Below are positions 11,960 to 37,253 of a stretch of DNA of 37,253 bases, piece by piece. The notes below the pieces were generated by a model. That model was not told the DNA's origin. It was given only the letters and a program-made list of their open reading frames with translations, and did no database searches. This DNA is from Planctomycetia bacterium (lineage in GTDB: Bacteria > Planctomycetota > Planctomycetia > Planctomycetales > Planctomycetaceae): NCBI GenBank assembly GCA_016200145.1, contig JACQFH010000171.1:1-37253 (forward strand). The letters run 5' to 3'. A program made the position numbers and the translations under genes. The first letter of the stretch is position 1. Every line of letters starts with the position of its first letter.

Positions 11960-13870
11960 ATGTCCCGCTCAACTCAACACCGCGATCGAACAGGGCGCCT
12001 GGCAAACTGGATCGTCGCAGCCTGCGCATGCCTCGTCGCGGCTTCGCCGGTGCGAAGCGAAGAACGCAAAGCAGACGCGGCCTCGGCAAAGCCGCTGGTC
12101 GAGATCACGATTCCGAGCATCGACCACGCGTATCAGGACTTCAAGCTGCTCTTCGACCTGGCACACGATCAAAAGGGCTACAAGACCTTCAAAGAAACGC
12201 TCGACGAGTTCCTGGTGGGAGTCGATGCCGGCAAACCCTGTGAGGTGCGGACCTTTGTCACGTCCGATGGACTGAGCACCGTCGTCTCTGCGCCCATTGC
12301 CGACAAATCCGCCTTTCAGAAGTTTCTGATCAATCTGTGGGACCTGGACGTGAAGACCGCGCCGCCCCCTGCGCCGCAGTTGCAGAAAGCGGTCCCGCGG
12401 TCGGTTCAGGAGAGATTGCGCACCGAAAAGCCGCAGCCGCAGGAGCGAATCCTGTTCGGACTGACGGAAGGCGCGCTTCGTTACGACGCGGGTGCTGTGC
12501 ACCTGGGAAATTCGCTGGCTGCGGTACGCCTGGCGCCGACAGGAACATCGTCGCACAAGGACAAGGAATCGAGCGCCAGCCTCTCGATCCGTATGGACGG
12601 AGAAAGCTCAGACCCGGCCCGGCGGCGGAGCGCGGTCGAGAAGTCGCGGGATGACCTGCTGTCGCGGCCGAAGCGGGAGAAATTCGAAAGCCAGGCCAAA
12701 TTCGAGCTCGCGAAATCATTCGCCGATCTGCAATTGGAACGGCTTGAACGGCTGCTGGCCGATTCTGCGCAGGCGAGCGTTGACTACACCGTCTCGCGCG
12801 ACAAAAAGACTTCGAAACTGGAGGGGGAGGTTGTCCCAGTGGCCGACACGCCACTCGCGCACGACGTCGCCGGGCTGGGGCGGCACTCCGACGCCTTTTC
12901 GGGCGTGTCGCAGCAGAACGCGGTGGTCTCTGCCCAGATCAATCTGCCCCTCGATTCGAAGATGGGAGAGCTGCTCAAGCGCGTGGCCGCGAATGCACGC
13001 GCCGCGGCCGATGAGGCCGTTGACAAATCAACCCGGCTCGACGCCGCGCAGAAAGAATCCGGTAAAGATCTTTCCGAACTGGTTTTCGAGATTGCAAAGG
13101 ACGTTGCGGGAACGGATTCGTTCAACAGCTTCTTGCGGACCTGGACCGACACCGAAGGCAAACTGACCACCGTGGGGGGAACCCGGATTGCGCACGTTGA
13201 GACATTTCGCGAGCGGATCAGGAAATTCAAGCACCAGGAGCGCGTGCAGAAGTCAATTGCCGGCGTGGAGTTGCACAAATTGACCCATGCGCACTGGCAA
13301 GCCGACGCCCCGGAACTGTTCGACTGGGAGGGCACGGTGTACGTCGCCACTTCGGACCACGCGATCTGGTATGCTCTGGGGCCAGAGGCGCTGGAACGGC
13401 TCGAGCAGGCGATTCAGGCTGCGCCGCAAGGCGCCGCGTCCGGCGGCGCCAATGCCGTGCAGGCAGCGGGAGTCGATTTTCATGCCCGCCTGCAGCCTCT
13501 CGCGCGCATCTGGGACGCGATCAGCTCCCGGCGCGCTCCGCGGTCAGCGACTCGCGGCGAAGGCCGAACCGAGGCAAAGGCTGATCCCAAAGCACCGAAA
13601 AAATCCGGCAAGCAGGCGGATTCGAAGGAGCCGGCGAAAACCAGCCGTAAGAAAACCACCGACACCGTCTCCGCCTCTTCGATCGCCGGCTTACAGTTAC
13701 ACAAGATCGCTGCGCAGGCCTTCAAGGATGGCGACGGGCAGTTTTCTCTTTCGCTCACGCGGGACGGAGACAAAGCGCGCCTCTCGATCAACTGCGACGA
13801 GGGCATCCTGCGTTTCGCAGGAATGGTGCTTTCGAAGTTCACGCAGGAGAATCTGTCGGACGAGCCGTGA
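11960..13870 (+). CDS. Large secreted protein of unknown function
   Basis: Predicted 636-residue protein with a clear signal sequence (LANWIVAACACLVAASPVRS, then EE). I do not recognise a named domain. It contains a charged helical mid-section (residues about 210-270), a K/S/A-rich low-complexity linker near 525-570 (KAPKKSGKQADSKEPAKTSRKK), and a C-terminal block (GLQLHKIAAQAFKDGDGQFS... LRFAGMVLSKF) seen in other planctomycete secreted proteins. An earlier related phrase, AGVELHKLTHAHW, suggests an internal repeat of the same module. The start at 11960 has AGGAG 9 bases upstream. It stands alone between csrA (divergent) and the LEPR-XLL gene. Confidence 0.75.
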   Translation: MSRSTQHRDRTGRLANWIVAACACLVAASPVRSEERKADAASAKPLVEITIPSIDHAYQDFKLLFDLAHDQKGYKTFKETLDEFLVGVDAGKPCEVRTFVTSDGLSTVVSAPIADKSAFQKFLINLWDLDVKTAPPPAPQLQKAVPRSVQERLRTEKPQPQERILFGLTEGALRYDAGAVHLGNSLAAVRLAPTGTSSHKDKESSASLSIRMDGESSDPARRRSAVEKSRDDLLSRPKREKFESQAKFELAKSFADLQLERLERLLADSAQASVDYTVSRDKKTSKLEGEVVPVADTPLAHDVAGLGRHSDAFSGVSQQNAVVSAQINLPLDSKMGELLKRVAANARAAADEAVDKSTRLDAAQKESGKDLSELVFEIAKDVAGTDSFNSFLRTWTDTEGKLTTVGGTRIAHVETFRERIRKFKHQERVQKSIAGVELHKLTHAHWQADAPELFDWEGTVYVATSDHAIWYALGPEALERLEQAIQAAPQGAASGGANAVQAAGVDFHARLQPLARIWDAISSRRAPRSATRGEGRTEAKADPKAPKKSGKQADSKEPAKTSRKKTTDTVSASSIAGLQLHKIAAQAFKDGDGQFSLSLTRDGDKARLSINCDEGILRFAGMVLSKFTQENLSDEP

Positions 13871-14240
13871 CCGTCAGACGATCAATCGGAGCAGCGAGCG
13901 ATCAAATCAAATCGCGATCCGATCGAAGCGCGGTCACGCAAGTTCCGGAGATTCCAGGTGCGGCCCGACGCCATTCGCTGAAACGTTGCAGCTGCAAATT
14001 CTCCGCTGATTCTCCGATCGCGGCCCAGCGGACAGCGGCCTTGCAGGCGATGCCAGCATCCGGCTCACAGAATCGACTGAAGATTTTGTGATTGAACCGG
14101 CATACGTCTTGCGATTGGCCTCTTCGGTCTGAAGGCAAGACGAGTGTGCACGACGCGGGGAGTTTCTCCTGCGCGCAACTGTGCGCGACTTTCAACTGCC
14201 AAGAGATTCCCGGTTGCATGCAATTTTGAAGGAGCATCCC
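13871..14240. other. Long leader/intergenic region before the beta-helix gene
   Basis: 370 bases contain no open frame with family resemblance. The last 140 bases hold two stem-loops (14105-14142 and 14172-14187) and a good ribosome-binding site (GAAGGAG, 14228-14234), suggesting a structured mRNA leader. I could not match it to a riboswitch class. No clear sigma-70 promoter is visible. Confidence 0.45.
14105..14187 (+). promoter_or_regulatory. Structured leader of the LEPR-XLL gene
   Basis: The first stem pairs CGTCTTGC (14105-14112) with GCAAGACG (14135-14142) and encloses a second small stem, CTTC with GAAG. A second hairpin pairs CGCGCA (14172-14177) with TGCGCG (14182-14187). Both lie 50-135 bases before the ATG. 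They could control translation or mRNA stability; function is inferred from position only. Confidence 0.35.
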
Positions 14241-16985
14241 ATGCTGGTGTCCGCCCCGTTTCGCCGATTCGTCAATCGCCTGCATCGCACACTGACTCCC
14301 GGCCGGAGCCGCTCGCGCCTGCGTCGCACGCCGGCAAGCGCGCTCGCGCCCGTCGCGGCGATGGTCAACACGATCGAAACGCTGGAAGACCGGCAATTGC
14401 TGTCGGCCAGCATTCTGGTCAACAGCACCGTCGACGCGACGCATTACGCCTCCAGCGTCACGGCGGCCCAGTTGAACCCGGCCGTCACGTCGGTGACGCT
14501 CCGCGATGCCATCAACGCCTGCAACAACACGGCAGGCGACATTTCGATCACCTTCGATCCCACGATCTTCCAGGCCGGGCAGACGACGACCATCAACCTG
14601 ACCAGCGGCCCGCTCACAATTACAAATTCCACGGGACAGGTCACGATCCAGGGTGCTGCGGAAGTTTCCACCGCGGCCCAGCAGCAGATTATCATCAGCG
14701 GCACGAACTTGAGCGGCGTTTTCCAGGTGAATGCCGGGGCCAACGTCGAAATCGACGGCTGCACGATCACGGGCGGGCATGCCGCGATCGGCGCCGGCAT
14801 CAACAATCAGGGAACGCTGACTCTCCGCGGTGACACGATCTTCGGCAATGACGCCACAGTCAGTGCCTCGCTGAACGCCGGCGGGGGCATTGCCACGTCG
14901 GGCACTCTCAACGTGTTCGACTGCACGATCACCGAAAATGACGCCAGCGGCGCCACCGTCAATCTGGGGGGCGGGATCTACGTCGCGAGCGGTGGTTCTG
15001 CCACGATCACCGACTGCACGATCGCCCGCAATACCGCCTCAGTCGGCGGGGGACTCGACGCTCAAGTCGGCGGGCTGGTCCTGCTGCAGGGCACGATTCT
15101 CGCGGCCAACACCGTGAGCCTTGCCGACAGCACGCCCAGCGACTACGGCGGAATCTCTGCCAGCATTCTCGTCACCAGCAACCACAATCTCGTGGGTGAT
15201 GGCACCGGGACCGGCCTGACCACCGGGGTGAATGGGAACATTGTGGGGACGACGGGTTCTCCGGTAAATGCCAATCTCTCGGCACTGGCGAACTTCGGCG
15301 GGGGGGCGCAGATGATCGCCGTTCTGCCGGGCAGCCTGGCCATCAATGCGGGCGCGGTCTTCACCGACAACAACAGCGCCGTCATCTCGACCGACCAGCG
15401 CGGCATTGCGCGCGTCTCGGGGTCAATCGACATCGGGGCCTATCAGTCGGCCAACCCGACTGTGGTCAGCATCAATCGCGTGTCGCCGACCGTCGGCGTG
15501 ACCAGCGCCGATACGGTCACCTTCGCCGTGACGTTCGACATGCCTGTCGCCAACGTGTCGGTCGATGACTTCACGGTGAATGCCGGCACAGTGAGCGCCG
15601 TCTCGATGGTCAATGCGTCGAGTTACAACGTGACCGTTAACGGCCTCGGCAGTTTCACCGGCACCCTCACGTTGGGTTTCGCCGGCGGTCAGAACATTAC
15701 CGACACGGCCGGGCTGGCGCTGACGGTGACGACGCCGACGGGCGTCAACATCAACACTTACATCATCGATCATTCGCCTCCCGCCTCGGTGTCGCTGGCT
15801 GGCGAATACGCGATTTCTACGTCTGGCGGCCCGAGTCTCGCCTTAGCGACGATTGCGCAAACCGGCCCTGCGACGTTGACGCTCAATGGCTCGACCTCCG
15901 TGAGCGCAACGATCAACAGCTCCTCTTTGTTGACTCTGGCTGTGGGAACCGCGACCTATGCAGACGGTAAGATCACGTTCTCGGCAGACAGCGCGTTCGC
16001 AGGTCAGGTGTGGACGAAACTCGATCTGCCGGTCAACTTCACCGACAGCCACGGGGCCGCGACGCACGTCACGCAGACCGGCGCCAGCGTGACTTTCACG
16101 GACGAATCTGGCGTGTCCACTCCTGCCGTGTGGATCAATTCCACACAACTGTTGCTGGGCGGGACGACGACGGTGACTGTGAGCAAGGGCAAGCTGCTCT
16201 TCTCCGACGGTCGAGTGTGGTTCGAGAATGTCGCGCTCAACGGTTCCGTCTCGGGCACCGCGAGCGGGTCAGTGGCCCTCACGGCTGTCCCCAGCCAGAT
16301 CGTCGTAACCGATTTCACCTCCAGCAATGGTGGCATGTCGGTGCACATGGTTCAGAACGGCACCACGCAGGTCATTTTTGTCGATGGACTTGGAGAAATG
16401 GCCCTGGGAGACTTCTTCAACGCCAGCCAGGCCTCGTCCCCCCGCTGGCCGGGCCAAGTTGCCACGGTGAGCAACAATGGGAACACGATCACATGGACCG
16501 ACGGCACTGTCTGGACCAGGAGCGCTCCCTCGACCCAGATCATCGTCAGTGATTACGTCACCGATTACCCCGCCTATGCGGGCGTCGGCGTGCATGTGAT
16601 TCAGAACGGGACGTCCCAACTGGGATGGGCCGACGGCAGAGGCGAATTGTCTCTGGGAGTCTTCATCAATGCGACGCAGGCGACGTCCGATCGCTACCCG
16701 GGCGACGTGGCGACGTTTGCCGCGGGAAACGTTGTCTGGCAAGATGGCACGATCTGGACTCGCAGCGCGACTCCGCAGGTGCTGATCACAGCCAACGTTA
16801 ACGGCGCGGCGTCGCGGCTGCTGGCCGTCAACTCGACGACGCTGCTCGGGCTCGACGGTTCGTTGCAGGGCTCGACCGGAACTCGCCTCAACGGCAAGAT
16901 CTACTGGTCGAACGGACAAGTCTGGACTAACCTGGACTTCGACCAGCTGAATGCCCTCTTCCAGATGTCGGTGGGCGTTTCGTAA
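14241..16985 (+). CDS. LEPR-XLL-motif beta-helix surface protein with C-terminal repeats
   Basis: Predicted 914-residue exported protein. The basic N-terminus ends in LEDRQLLSA (residues 48-56), the planctomycete export-linked LEPR-XLL motif. Next comes a CSLREA-like block (VTLRDAINACNN), then a right-handed beta-helix with repeated CTI-type rungs (GCTITGG, DCTITEN, DCTIARN), then the choice-of-anchor Q-type ending SIDIGAYQS. A cadherin/Ig-like domain starts near VVSINRVSPTVGV. The last 300 residues contain four units ending in variants of G-x-I-x-W-x-D/N-G-x-V/I-W-T. It is probably a cell-surface adhesin or scaffold. The ATG at 14241 has GAAGGAG 6 bases upstream. A strong terminator follows. 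Confidence 0.85.
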   Translation: MLVSAPFRRFVNRLHRTLTPGRSRSRLRRTPASALAPVAAMVNTIETLEDRQLLSASILVNSTVDATHYASSVTAAQLNPAVTSVTLRDAINACNNTAGDISITFDPTIFQAGQTTTINLTSGPLTITNSTGQVTIQGAAEVSTAAQQQIIISGTNLSGVFQVNAGANVEIDGCTITGGHAAIGAGINNQGTLTLRGDTIFGNDATVSASLNAGGGIATSGTLNVFDCTITENDASGATVNLGGGIYVASGGSATITDCTIARNTASVGGGLDAQVGGLVLLQGTILAANTVSLADSTPSDYGGISASILVTSNHNLVGDGTGTGLTTGVNGNIVGTTGSPVNANLSALANFGGGAQMIAVLPGSLAINAGAVFTDNNSAVISTDQRGIARVSGSIDIGAYQSANPTVVSINRVSPTVGVTSADTVTFAVTFDMPVANVSVDDFTVNAGTVSAVSMVNASSYNVTVNGLGSFTGTLTLGFAGGQNITDTAGLALTVTTPTGVNINTYIIDHSPPASVSLAGEYAISTSGGPSLALATIAQTGPATLTLNGSTSVSATINSSSLLTLAVGTATYADGKITFSADSAFAGQVWTKLDLPVNFTDSHGAATHVTQTGASVTFTDESGVSTPAVWINSTQLLLGGTTTVTVSKGKLLFSDGRVWFENVALNGSVSGTASGSVALTAVPSQIVVTDFTSSNGGMSVHMVQNGTTQVIFVDGLGEMALGDFFNASQASSPRWPGQVATVSNNGNTITWTDGTVWTRSAPSTQIIVSDYVTDYPAYAGVGVHVIQNGTSQLGWADGRGELSLGVFINATQATSDRYPGDVATFAAGNVVWQDGTIWTRSATPQVLITANVNGAASRLLAVNSTTLLGLDGSLQGSTGTRLNGKIYWSNGQVWTNLDFDQLNALFQMSVGVS

Positions 16986-19569: not shown

Positions 19570-19590
19570 ACTCAGTACTCAGTACTCAGT
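19570..19590. repeat. Heptamer repeat (ACTCAGT) x3
   Basis: Three exact tandem copies of ACTCAGT between two convergent genes. On the minus strand they encode the last residues (STEY) and the stop codon of the ATP-grasp-like gene, so that gene's C-terminus is made of repeat DNA. Confidence 0.85.
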
Positions 19591-20918
19591 CGGATTGCCT
19601 GTGGAGTGAGATGATTGAACAGCGTCGCCTCCGCGATGTTGCGAACCTGAGGTGACGGCGCAAGGACGAGAACGCCACACGGCGAATTTGATCGCGCGGA
19701 CCGAGGCGACGCCGGAACGGCGATCGCGCCGCCGGGCAGATGACGCTCCAGCGCATGAAGCCACTCCGCGACAGAGAGTTTCCCAAGACGCAGTCCGCTG
19801 AAGTGCAGCCACGATCCGCACCATTGGTTCGTTTCACCAGACGCATCCCCCCCTTCGTAAAGGGGGGTAAGGGGGGGTGAAGTGACAATATATTCCGACT
19901 CTGCCGTGCCCGCCCGCCCGTCCCGGGAGGCCCCGCCCCCACCCAGCAACCGACAAAACCCCAGCGCCAACCTCCCCATCGTCCACCGTGCATTCAGATC
20001 CTGCAGGGGCCTCAGTCGCACCTCGCCAGCCGCGTCGCGATACAGCATGGCGTCGATTCCCAGCGGCCCGAAATATCCGAGTCGTTGCAGCTCGAGCGCC
20101 GCGCGCAACGCCACGTCGACTGCCGGCTGCCAGCAGGCGATTTCTTCCGGCAGACACCCAAACCGGCTGCCACGATAGACGCCGCTGGTGTCGACCAACA
20201 GCGGCGTGACGCCCATCAGCCGCGGCGCGCCATTCGAGGGGATTTCCAATTGAATTCCCGCTTCGGCGATGCGCTCGACGATCGGCTCGAAAATGATCGG
20301 CCCGTTCGACGCCAGCCGCTTCACTGCCCAGTTGTGAATGTTGCCCTCGAGGTTCCTTCCGCGCCCGCGCATCGCTTCGCGTCCCGACATTCCGTAATTC
20401 GCTTTCAGGAGCCAGCCGCGCGGATTCTCGCCCGAGCTGGCAACCACAGCGTCCAGGTCGTTGAGCGATCGTGCGATCGCCGCCTGCTCGAGGCCGATGT
20501 TCCAGTCGCGCTCGAGGCCGAATCGAAACTCGCGACTGTTGACGCGGCACACGACGTCGGCCGGCGGCGCTGCGGCGGTCCACCCGTGTTCCTTCGCGCG
20601 GCGCAACAGCGATTCGGTCCATCCCCAGGGAACAAGTTCCCAATCCGACCCCCGGGGTAATCGTTCCGCCGCGCCGCAGAATTGCGGAATCGAGAGCCCG
20701 AGCTCTGCCAGCGGCGAGAATTCGGCCGCGGGCATTTCACCGTTGATGACAACCACGTCGCCGGGCTCCGCAATCGCGGTCCACACCCACGCCCGATCCG
20801 AAAGAGATCCCGCGCCGGCAGCGAGCAGTTCGCCCGGCGCGGTGCGCGGTAAGTCCCCGCTCTGCCCTCGCGCCAGCTCGTGCTCAAATTCAAAGTTCCC
20901 GAAGAAGATGCGCGGCAT
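19572..20918 (-). CDS. ATP-grasp-like protein, carrying a repeat insertion
   Basis: Predicted 448-residue cytoplasmic protein. The middle resembles an ATP-grasp ligase: GWLLKANYGMSGRE (residues 168-181) fits the ATP-binding lysine region, and GPLGIDAMLYRDAAGEVRL followed by DLNARWTMGR (about 285-316) fits the metal-binding and N-x-R end of the fold. The partner substrates are unknown. Residues 341-365 (SEYIVTSPPLTPLYEGGD...) are encoded by a C7/G7 hairpin repeat inserted in frame, and the final STEY by a heptamer repeat. The start at 20918 is the first Met of the conserved-looking N-terminus MPRIFFGNFEFEHEL. I saw no convincing ribosome-binding site. Confidence 0.65.
   Translation of the reverse strand: MPRIFFGNFEFEHELARGQSGDLPRTAPGELLAAGAGSLSDRAWVWTAIAEPGDVVVINGEMPAAEFSPLAELGLSIPQFCGAAERLPRGSDWELVPWGWTESLLRRAKEHGWTAAAPPADVVCRVNSREFRFGLERDWNIGLEQAAIARSLNDLDAVVASSGENPRGWLLKANYGMSGREAMRGRGRNLEGNIHNWAVKRLASNGPIIFEPIVERIAEAGIQLEIPSNGAPRLMGVTPLLVDTSGVYRGSRFGCLPEEIACWQPAVDVALRAALELQRLGYFGPLGIDAMLYRDAAGEVRLRPLQDLNARWTMGRLALGFCRLLGGGGASRDGRAGTAESEYIVTSPPLTPLYEGGDASGETNQWCGSWLHFSGLRLGKLSVAEWLHALERHLPGGAIAVPASPRSARSNSPCGVLVLAPSPQVRNIAEATLFNHLTPQAIRLSTEY
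19845..19882 (-). repeat. C7/G7 hairpin repeat, copy A (inside a gene)
   Basis: Read on the minus strand: TCA, seven C, TTA, six C, TTTACGAA, seven G. It lies within the ATP-grasp-like coding sequence and keeps the frame. Other copies: 22721-22760, 26359-26396, 35291-35330. Confidence 0.85.
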
Positions 20919-35330: not shown

Positions 35331-35343
35331 ACGTGAGAAAAGG

Positions 35344-35446
35344 GAGGATAGAGGATCGAAGATGGAGGATCGAGATTCGCGAACGAGATTCTCGCGCCAT
35401 CCTCGATCTTCCATCCTCCATCTTCGATTTTCCCTCCTCGATCTTC
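35344..35446. repeat. Heptamer GARGATN inverted repeat (hemH-AroDE gap)
   Basis: Four units left (GAGGATA, GAGGATC, GAAGATG, GAGGATC; 35344-35371) and seven opposite units right (35398-35446). The right run reaches the stop codon of the AroD-AroE-like gene. Related arrays are at 28121, 32707 and 36989. Confidence 0.85.
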
Positions 35447-36930
35447 TACCCTTCGGCTTTCGCCAGCGTCGCCTCCACGACATCGGCCGGCAGTTCCTTC
35501 CCGGTGATCGTCTTGAAAACCGTGGCGATGTAGTCGCCGAAGATTTTCAGGGGCTCGATGATCTTGCAGCCCCGTTCGCGGGCCTCGCGCATGAGGTCGC
35601 TTTCGCCCGTCAGGTTCGAGAGGTCTGTGACGAACATCGGAGGCCGGAGGAACGCCGGATTGACCTTAACACCAGGGCCGGCCGCGCCGCCGGTCATCTT
35701 GTCCTGCGCCTGCGCCTCGGAAATGATCACGACGTCGCACAGCGTGTCGTACATGTTGGCGATGGGAACGTATCGCGCGCCGGTGGCCTGGGCCAGGCGC
35801 TGGGCCTCGCCATCATCCGCGGCGGTCAGGCTCAGGAGCCCCTTCCGCTTCTGCACCCCGACGGCCACGCTGCGGGCCATGCCGCCGGCGCCGATCACGA
35901 ACACATTGCGGCGGTCGAGCGGCCGGTCTTCGGCCGTCTTGGCTCCCAGGGCGGTTTCGACGACCCGCAGCACGCTCTTCCAGGCCGTGTTGTAAGCGTG
36001 CCAGCCGTCGGCCTGCTTGACCACCATGTCGGCATACTGCGCCTTGCGCGCCGCTTCTTCGATGTCGGTCGCCAGGTTCAGTGCCCGCTCACACAGTTCC
36101 GGATTGGCCAGCAGCACGTTGACGTGCAACGTGTCGAGCATCTGGTTGATCTTGTCGGACACGCCGATTTCAAGCTGCAGGCAACGGATGTTGAGCTGCT
36201 GAGCGGCGAATCCCGCGTTGAGCAATTTGACCGCGGCGATCTCCGTCGGGCCAAACCCGGCGACCGCCACGAACCGGGTCTGCGGCCCGATCTCGCGGAA
36301 GCGATAAATCTCTTCCAGGTCGGCGACCGTCGCCTGCCCCTCGTGCGCTTCGAGGCCCCGCTCGAGCGCGCCATAGATCCACGGCGCGCCGTATTTCAGC
36401 CCAAGCAGCGAGAACATCACTCCCGGTTGCCCCAGGCCCATTCCCACGACTGGGATATTGCGCTTCTTGCTGATCGTCGCCAGCAAGGGCCACGCTGCGT
36501 CGAGCGTTGGAGTGGGGCCGACCAGCTTCACGACGTCGGCCTTGGCGGCGATCGCCTTCTCGATGATCGGCTCGAGGTTCGCAAGCGGCTTGGTCATGCT
36601 CGTGTAGCTCACGACCCGCTTCGTGTTGCCGAAACGGGGGATCTTGTCGGCGATGTCGAGTTCCAGCTCGACGTACGCCGGGGCGGTGATAATCGCCGTG
36701 CGGAGCTGCACCAGCCGCTCGTCTTCGGTGCCGTCCCAGTTGCCTCCGTCGGCTTTCCGCCGGCACGACACGAGGATCGGCTTCGAAATGCCTTCCATCA
36801 TCTCTTTGAGGTCGGGCTCTTTTCCCAGTCGGTCGAGCCGAAACTCGATCAGATCGCACTGCGGCGCGGCGTTAAAGAGATCGACTTTGCCGAGTCGGCG
36901 GGATTCAGGAGCAACAGCGATGCAGAGCAT
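35446..36930 (-). CDS. AroD-AroE-like fusion (dehydroquinate dehydratase / shikimate dehydrogenase fold), active sites altered
   Basis: Predicted 494-residue cytoplasmic protein. Residues 1-210 fold as type I 3-dehydroquinate dehydratase: DLIEFRLD (E29, R31), VSCRRKADGG (R57), ADVVKLVGPTP (Schiff-base K135) and EGQ (Q199). Residues 215-494 resemble shikimate dehydrogenase, with the nucleotide loop VIGAGGMAR (347-353). Several catalytic positions are changed: the dehydratase histidine is T110 (SYTSM), its substrate arginine is M172, and the dehydrogenase Ser-x-Ser, Lys and Asp sites read GFGPTE, NPE and NTA. Both activities are therefore doubtful. The start at 36930 (MLCIAVAPES) is the first canonical residue; the frame to 37086 begins in a repeat. 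Heptamer arrays lie on both sides. Confidence 0.85.
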   Translation of the reverse strand: MLCIAVAPESRRLGKVDLFNAAPQCDLIEFRLDRLGKEPDLKEMMEGISKPILVSCRRKADGGNWDGTEDERLVQLRTAIITAPAYVELELDIADKIPRFGNTKRVVSYTSMTKPLANLEPIIEKAIAAKADVVKLVGPTPTLDAAWPLLATISKKRNIPVVGMGLGQPGVMFSLLGLKYGAPWIYGALERGLEAHEGQATVADLEEIYRFREIGPQTRFVAVAGFGPTEIAAVKLLNAGFAAQQLNIRCLQLEIGVSDKINQMLDTLHVNVLLANPELCERALNLATDIEEAARKAQYADMVVKQADGWHAYNTAWKSVLRVVETALGAKTAEDRPLDRRNVFVIGAGGMARSVAVGVQKRKGLLSLTAADDGEAQRLAQATGARYVPIANMYDTLCDVVIISEAQAQDKMTGGAAGPGVKVNPAFLRPPMFVTDLSNLTGESDLMREARERGCKIIEPLKIFGDYIATVFKTITGKELPADVVEATLAKAEG

Positions 36931-36988
36931 GGGGGGTCCGTAGTTGGCGATGCGTTGATTGATCAGGAAGCCGCGTTCAAAAAACAAC

Positions 36989-37016
36989 GAGGATGGAGGA
37001 TCGAAGATGGAGGATG
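36989..37016. repeat. Heptamer GARGATN repeat upstream of the AroD-AroE-like gene
   Basis: Four units (GAGGATG, GAGGATC, GAAGATG, GAGGATG) in the 100-base gap between two minus-strand genes. Oriented opposite to the right-hand run at 35398-35446, so the gene is bracketed by inverted arrays. Confidence 0.82.
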
Positions 37017-37030
37017 GAAATTTGTGGGCC

Positions 37031-37253
37031 TCATCGTTTTCGTGGAGGAGTAGGACTCGGTTTGCAGAAGAACTCGGCCTTATCAATCATTCCGTTGAGC
37101 ATGGCCCCTACGCGTTGCCAACTCGAATCGAGTTGCGCGTGTCGATTTGCGTCGATGTAACGGCAATCCAAGGCGTGATCTAGCCACGCTTGTGTCTCCA
37201 TCGCCTCTCCCAATGCCTCATTGATCTTGTTGGAAAATGCCGCAATATACCAC
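37031..37253 (-). CDS. Four-helix-bundle protein (S23/IVP-like), 3' part only
   Basis: The last 73 residues of a gene that runs off the right edge. The frame is open through the edge: WYIAAFSNKINEALGEAMET, then QAWLDHALDCRYID and RVGAMLNGMIDKAEFFCKP. This is the typical C-terminal half of the four-helix-bundle family first seen as intervening-sequence proteins in 23S rRNA genes; elsewhere it occurs as a stand-alone gene of unknown function. No rRNA sequence is present here. The start is not in the window. Confidence 0.75.
   Translation of the reverse strand, partial: WYIAAFSNKINEALGEAMETQAWLDHALDCRYIDANRHAQLDSSWQRVGAMLNGMIDKAEFFCKPSPTPPRKR

Follow-up and report, generated by a model that had tools for sequence, protein, structure and literature searches.

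Type I dehydroquinase (AroD), as known from E. coli and Salmonella, is a barrel enzyme for which roles of S21, E46, R48, R82, D114, H143, K170, R213 and Q236 have been described, with the essential histidine helping both to form the Schiff base and to hydrolyse it (PMC9902378). Dehydratase and shikimate dehydrogenase are fused in the bifunctional AroDE enzymes, among them Arabidopsis DHQ dehydratase-shikimate dehydrogenase (2gpt/2o7q) and planctomycete AroDE. A non-catalytic fate of the same enzymes is represented by the fungal repressors QutR, qa-1S, GaaX and TanX, which are related in degenerate form to the last three domains of AROM; their dead dehydroquinase domain has been proposed to bind a ligand, dehydroquinate or a keto acid, that is not converted (PMC6528562, PMC10512348). 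No description of a planctomycete pseudo-AroDE or dehydroquinase pseudoenzyme was found in the open-access literature, and shikimate genes do not appear in the main text of the P. limnophila paper on essential genes.

The window, a stretch of 37,253 nucleotides from a Planctomycetia bacterium, encodes a pseudo-AroDE paralogue of 494 aa on the minus strand, running from an ATG at 36930 down to a stop at 35446; the span 35446–36930 given in the earlier note was correct. The frame could be extended to an upstream TTG, but nearly all homologues begin at M1 in the alignment. Residues 1–210 (36301..36930, minus strand) form a strongly conserved type I dehydroquinase-like barrel half, matching Pfam DHquinase_I with an E-value of 4e-34, and residues 218–490 (35461..36279, minus strand) a shikimate dehydrogenase-like half whose shikimate-site residues are lost and unconserved, with a weak match to Pfam Shikimate_DH (15 bits, under the cut-off of 24.3). 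NCBIfam equivalog cut-offs are missed widely (NF006802, 46.7 bits vs 598; aroD, 66 vs 139; aroE, 38.8 vs 200). An AlphaFold2 model, with 38 relatives included in the input, reached a pLDDT of 91 and a pTM of 0.89, and Foldseek matched the protein over its full length to the Arabidopsis enzyme (2o7q/2gpt) with a TM of 0.86, the domain order being common to both. Given the Pfam, AlphaFold2 and Foldseek results, the AroD-AroE-like fusion that the earlier note had proposed is real, and both of its folds are intact; Pfam and AlphaFold2 place just these two halves in the 494 aa, with no DNA-binding domain.

Active-site residues were compared with a set of 30 canonical AroDE sequences from planctomycetes, in which the His, Arg, Lys, Ser-x-Ser, Lys, Asn and Asp are present throughout (30/30), and were counted across 131 altered copies, gaps left out; residue equivalences to E. 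coli numbering beyond those with published roles are our own assignments. The side of the dehydratase pocket that includes K135, E29 and R57 is kept. Lys135 (36526..36528, minus strand), the equivalent of the Schiff-base Lys170, is present in 130/131 family members, and the window protein also retains E29 (Glu46), R31 (Arg48), R57 (Arg82) and Q199 (Gln236), in agreement with the earlier motif alignment, with D61 at the position of Glu86. Across the altered copies Glu29, Asp33 and Cys56 (130/130 each) and Trp184 (130/131) are near-invariant, as are Glu88 in place of Asp114 (128/131), Arg57 (126/130), Gln199 (124/131) and Ser55 in place of Thr80 (124/130); in all, 34 barrel-half positions are at least 95% conserved.

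The opposite side of the pocket, that of the histidine and the carboxylate-binding arginine, has been replaced in a conserved way. The site of the catalytic His143 is occupied by Thr110 (36601..36603, minus strand; T in 107, A in 15 and H in 1 of 131), a substitution that alignment to the canonical set bears out as first read. Loss of the substrate-carboxylate Arg213 is likewise borne out, although its equivalent is not M172, as had been suggested: that residue lies two columns off, and the gap-free alignment gives Ser174 (36409..36411, minus strand), with Ser in 119/131 copies and Arg in 0/131. With M172 corrected to S174, both this position and T110 are well conserved among orthologues. The changes H143->T and R213->S are accompanied by the linked replacements D114->E, T80->S and M205->L, and are not a matter of chance, being common to the whole clade. 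Positions 31, 110, 166, 174 and 196 are variable in altered copies. The R31 of the window protein is a genus exception, the Arg48 position being mostly Cys across the family (Cys 92, Arg 27); Arg is found there in the window genus and in the outlying families, so the Arg-to-Cys change arose later, within Planctomycetaceae. No His is conserved anywhere in the barrel half among the 131 copies, and by sequence no conserved His or Arg compensates for those lost from the active sites.

At the shikimate site of the dehydrogenase half, the window protein has I231, A233, C280, D301 and A316 where the canonical enzyme has Ser, Ser, Lys, Asn and Asp, respectively. The reported loss of Ser-x-Ser, Lys and Asp thus stands for the window and extends to the family, in which Ser-x-Ser and Asp are kept in 0/131 altered copies and Lys in 1/131, with Asn mostly replaced by Asp. 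The nucleotide loop, described earlier as kept, is indeed present in the window protein as a residual glycine-rich GAGG (residues 347–350; 35881..35892, minus strand), but is eroding across the family, G347 being found in 105/106 copies and G349 and G350 each in ~67%.

These residues bear directly on whether the protein could still work as a bifunctional AroDE, the missing roles having passed to other residues, an explanation for which the retained dehydratase Lys, Glu, Arg and Gln and the GAGG loop of the window protein might speak. It is very improbable: the barrel half lacks a conserved His, Arg213, Ser-x-Ser, Lys and Asp have been lost together without conserved replacement, the dehydrogenase pocket is conserved at a random level, and a complete canonical AroDE is encoded in the same genome. 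In comparison with type I dehydroquinase, the barrel, the lysine and the hydroxyl-side residues are common to both, whereas pseudo-AroDE is without His143 and Arg213 and is fused to a degenerate AroE; in comparison with bifunctional AroDE, the Schiff-base lysine and the equivalents of Glu46, Arg82 and Gln236 are common, whereas the catalytic His, substrate Arg, Ser-x-Ser, Lys and Asp are replaced in a separate clade living beside the true enzyme. With its defining residues absent, pseudo-AroDE is not an AroDE in the functional sense, and judging from its sequence the altered copy almost certainly does a job other than the two aromatic-synthesis steps.

The canonical AroD-AroE fusion, with all catalytic residues present, is encoded on contig C370, in line with the expectation of the earlier note that true AroD and AroE would be found elsewhere. 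A search of the genome found no aroQ (type II dehydroquinase), and AroQ as a stand-in for AroD was rejected. A further AroE-like protein (L214:1383-2237; genome G000, contig C199) is encoded between an RbsB-like binding protein and an RbsC-like permease; it is seemingly without the usual Ser-x-Ser, and is perhaps a sugar or cyclitol dehydrogenase.

An intact altered copy, scored at >=450 bits, was found in 70/73 Planctomycetaceae genomes of a class-wide sample, co-occurring with canonical AroDE throughout the family; relatives carrying it include Planctomycetaceae, Gimesia, Schlesneria, Thalassoglobus and Planctomicrobium. Outside Planctomycetaceae it occurs in 3/3 hits of one further family, in 15 genomes of another and in 1 genome of a third, and was not found in several sister families of the same sample; members in outlying families may stem from transfer between families. 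A maximum-likelihood tree of planctomycete AroDE sequences only separates altered and canonical copies into two clades, each with a support of 100, a split that points to an old duplication and not to repeated decay. The gene is absent from two Planctomycetaceae genomes, and in a Gimesia-like genome in one contig (L238:6566-8042, G498) it is broken into three frames, through loss of function there or sequencing error; broken in one genome and lacking in two, the altered copy is not strictly required. Another genome encodes two intact, diverged altered copies (L057; G025:C41:95136-96638) together with canonical AroDE.

Common occurrence with canonical AroDE, together with the shared fold and the constant retention of both halves, would also suit a non-catalytic subunit: a partner of canonical AroDE, or of another shikimate enzyme, that adjusts how stable or active the enzyme is, as is the case for other pseudo-paralogues. 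This explanation appears improbable, however, since canonical AroDE works without the altered copy in several sister families, the two genes are unlinked, except loosely in one genome (G026), and the near-invariant lysine would be left unexplained.

The altered copy is under purifying selection. A comparison of the window species with its nearest relative gives a dN/dS of 0.084 (0.058 in the barrel half and 0.098 in the dehydrogenase half), these values being rough with dS near saturation. Across the same 120 genome pairs, barrel-half conservation is 61.4% for altered and 62.0% for canonical copies, while that of the dehydrogenase half is 37.3% against 53.4%. Pocket positions of the altered barrel average 3.40 bits, compared with 3.04 for the rest of the barrel (P 0.04) and 3.87 for the canonical pocket; the dehydrogenase pocket of altered copies does not exceed random positions in conservation (P 0.6), whereas that of canonical copies does (P < 1e-4). 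This pattern indicates that the barrel pocket, though rebuilt and somewhat looser, is in use and that the dehydrogenase pocket is not. A decaying duplicate without function might be read into the faster evolution of the dehydrogenase half and the single genome with a broken copy, but is hardly credible and is refuted at the family level by a dN/dS of 0.08, retention in 70/73 genomes and conserved clade-specific residues; a decayed pseudogene was rejected on the same dN/dS and near-universal retention.

Among neighbouring genes, one alone recurs across deep branches: it encodes a large metallohydrolase of the CehA/McbA type (NF038032, E about 1e-82), probably secreted to judge from its N-terminus. 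In 20/86 loci with enough flank this gene is found upstream of pseudo-AroDE and in the same orientation, stop and start being 45–155 nt apart in the four cases measured. In the window, the upstream position is held by the C-terminal part of a four-helix-bundle protein (TIGR02436 type; 37031..37252, minus strand), cut by the contig end, and the N-terminal part of such a protein lies at the end of contig C9 (L213), just after a CehA/McbA-type hydrolase gene. The window contig (C442) and C9 probably abut, with one four-helix-bundle gene split between their ends; a relative (L107) has the intact order hydrolase, four-helix bundle, pseudo-AroDE, from which the hydrolase link would be present in the window genome too, across the assembly gap. 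Among the loci compared, neither transcription factors nor other obvious regulatory partners recur as neighbours. The neighbouring ferrochelatase gene is convergent and lies beside the gene in this genus only, and a link to it was rejected as a family feature.

Several further observations concern the surroundings of the gene. Short interspersed, partly palindromic repeats of the TCCTCCATCTTCGATCCTCC type flank it on both sides (35336-35447 and 36988-37022) and also occur on contig C9. In the sister species (G001), a paralogue fragment covering residues ~355-429 (L072:2879-3289) lies close to hemH and several kb away from the intact copy, and is a partial duplication or a rearrangement remnant. 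Elsewhere in the window, long candidate reading frames at 11960-13870 (+), 14181-16985 (+) and 19575-20918 (-) are without a Pfam match at an E-value of 1e-5.

The recurrent hydrolase linkage (20/86 loci) suggests a pathway, and with it a new lysine-dependent enzyme, in which Lys135 would serve as Schiff-base nucleophile towards another keto substrate, with Glu88 or Glu29 as general acid/base and an inactive dehydrogenase half. Near-invariant Lys135, Glu29, Arg57 and Glu88 with linked conserved replacements, and a barrel half as constrained as that of the true enzyme, are consistent with such a catalyst. The explanation is nevertheless rather unlikely: no conserved general base takes the place of the His, Thr110 has become Ala in 15/131 copies, positions 31, 166, 174 and 196 also vary, and the pocket is looser than the canonical one (3.40 vs 3.87 bits). 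The looseness at 31, 110, 166, 174 and 196 speaks against a newly evolved catalyst with tight tuning, although the near-invariant lysine keeps this rival alive.

The preferred reading, at a probability of roughly 0.45, is a neofunctionalised ligand-binding or sensing pseudo-AroDE, with a keto or polyol metabolite at Lys135 and a non-catalytic dehydrogenase half. The protein is an ancient paralogue of the planctomycete AroDE fusion that, on the evidence of its residues, appears no longer to perform either shikimate-pathway step. From ligand binding onward we infer the mechanism: a small metabolite, keto or polyol, would be held reversibly by the barrel at Lys135, perhaps as an imine, and would not be turned over, since the His needed for making and hydrolysing the imine is missing; the dehydrogenase half would act as a scaffold or partner surface; and the whole might be a metabolite-sensing or regulatory pseudoenzyme, working as QutR and GaaX have been proposed to work in fungi. 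The sensor reading is weakened by the lack of a regulatory neighbour and of a DNA-binding domain; the sole recurrent neighbour would suit a metabolic enzyme equally, and the near-invariant Lys135 could equally mean catalysis on another substrate. The alternatives of the earlier note, a different chemistry or a regulatory pseudoenzyme, are supported as a pair, and the data do not choose between the two.

By analogy, the closest functional likeness of pseudo-AroDE would be to the fungal QutR/GaaX group, without membership of it. Like QutR, qa-1S, GaaX and TanX, it comprises catalytically degenerate relatives of dehydratase and dehydrogenase kept beside the true pathway enzyme; unlike them, it has no shikimate-kinase-like domain before the dehydratase domain, and no partner comparable to the Zn2Cys6 activator gene that adjoins the fungal repressor genes. 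More tentatively than the preferred reading, pseudo-AroDE may possibly be a covalent, reversible keto-metabolite trap on Lys135 that signals via the dead dehydrogenase half, as a separately evolved bacterial counterpart of QutR/GaaX, or else a new lysine-dependent enzyme class; either way, it would represent a near-core, undescribed function of Planctomycetaceae.

In very many genomes of planctomycetes, domain-based automated annotation would mislabel the gene as an enzyme of the shikimate pathway. The family amounts to a natural experiment, in which a dehydratase barrel has kept its Schiff-base lysine across a deep bacterial radiation after loss of the catalytic His. With it one can test directly whether a site of this kind turns into a covalent metabolite sensor or into a new enzyme, and it may offer a bacterial parallel to the fungal repressors derived from the same pathway enzymes.
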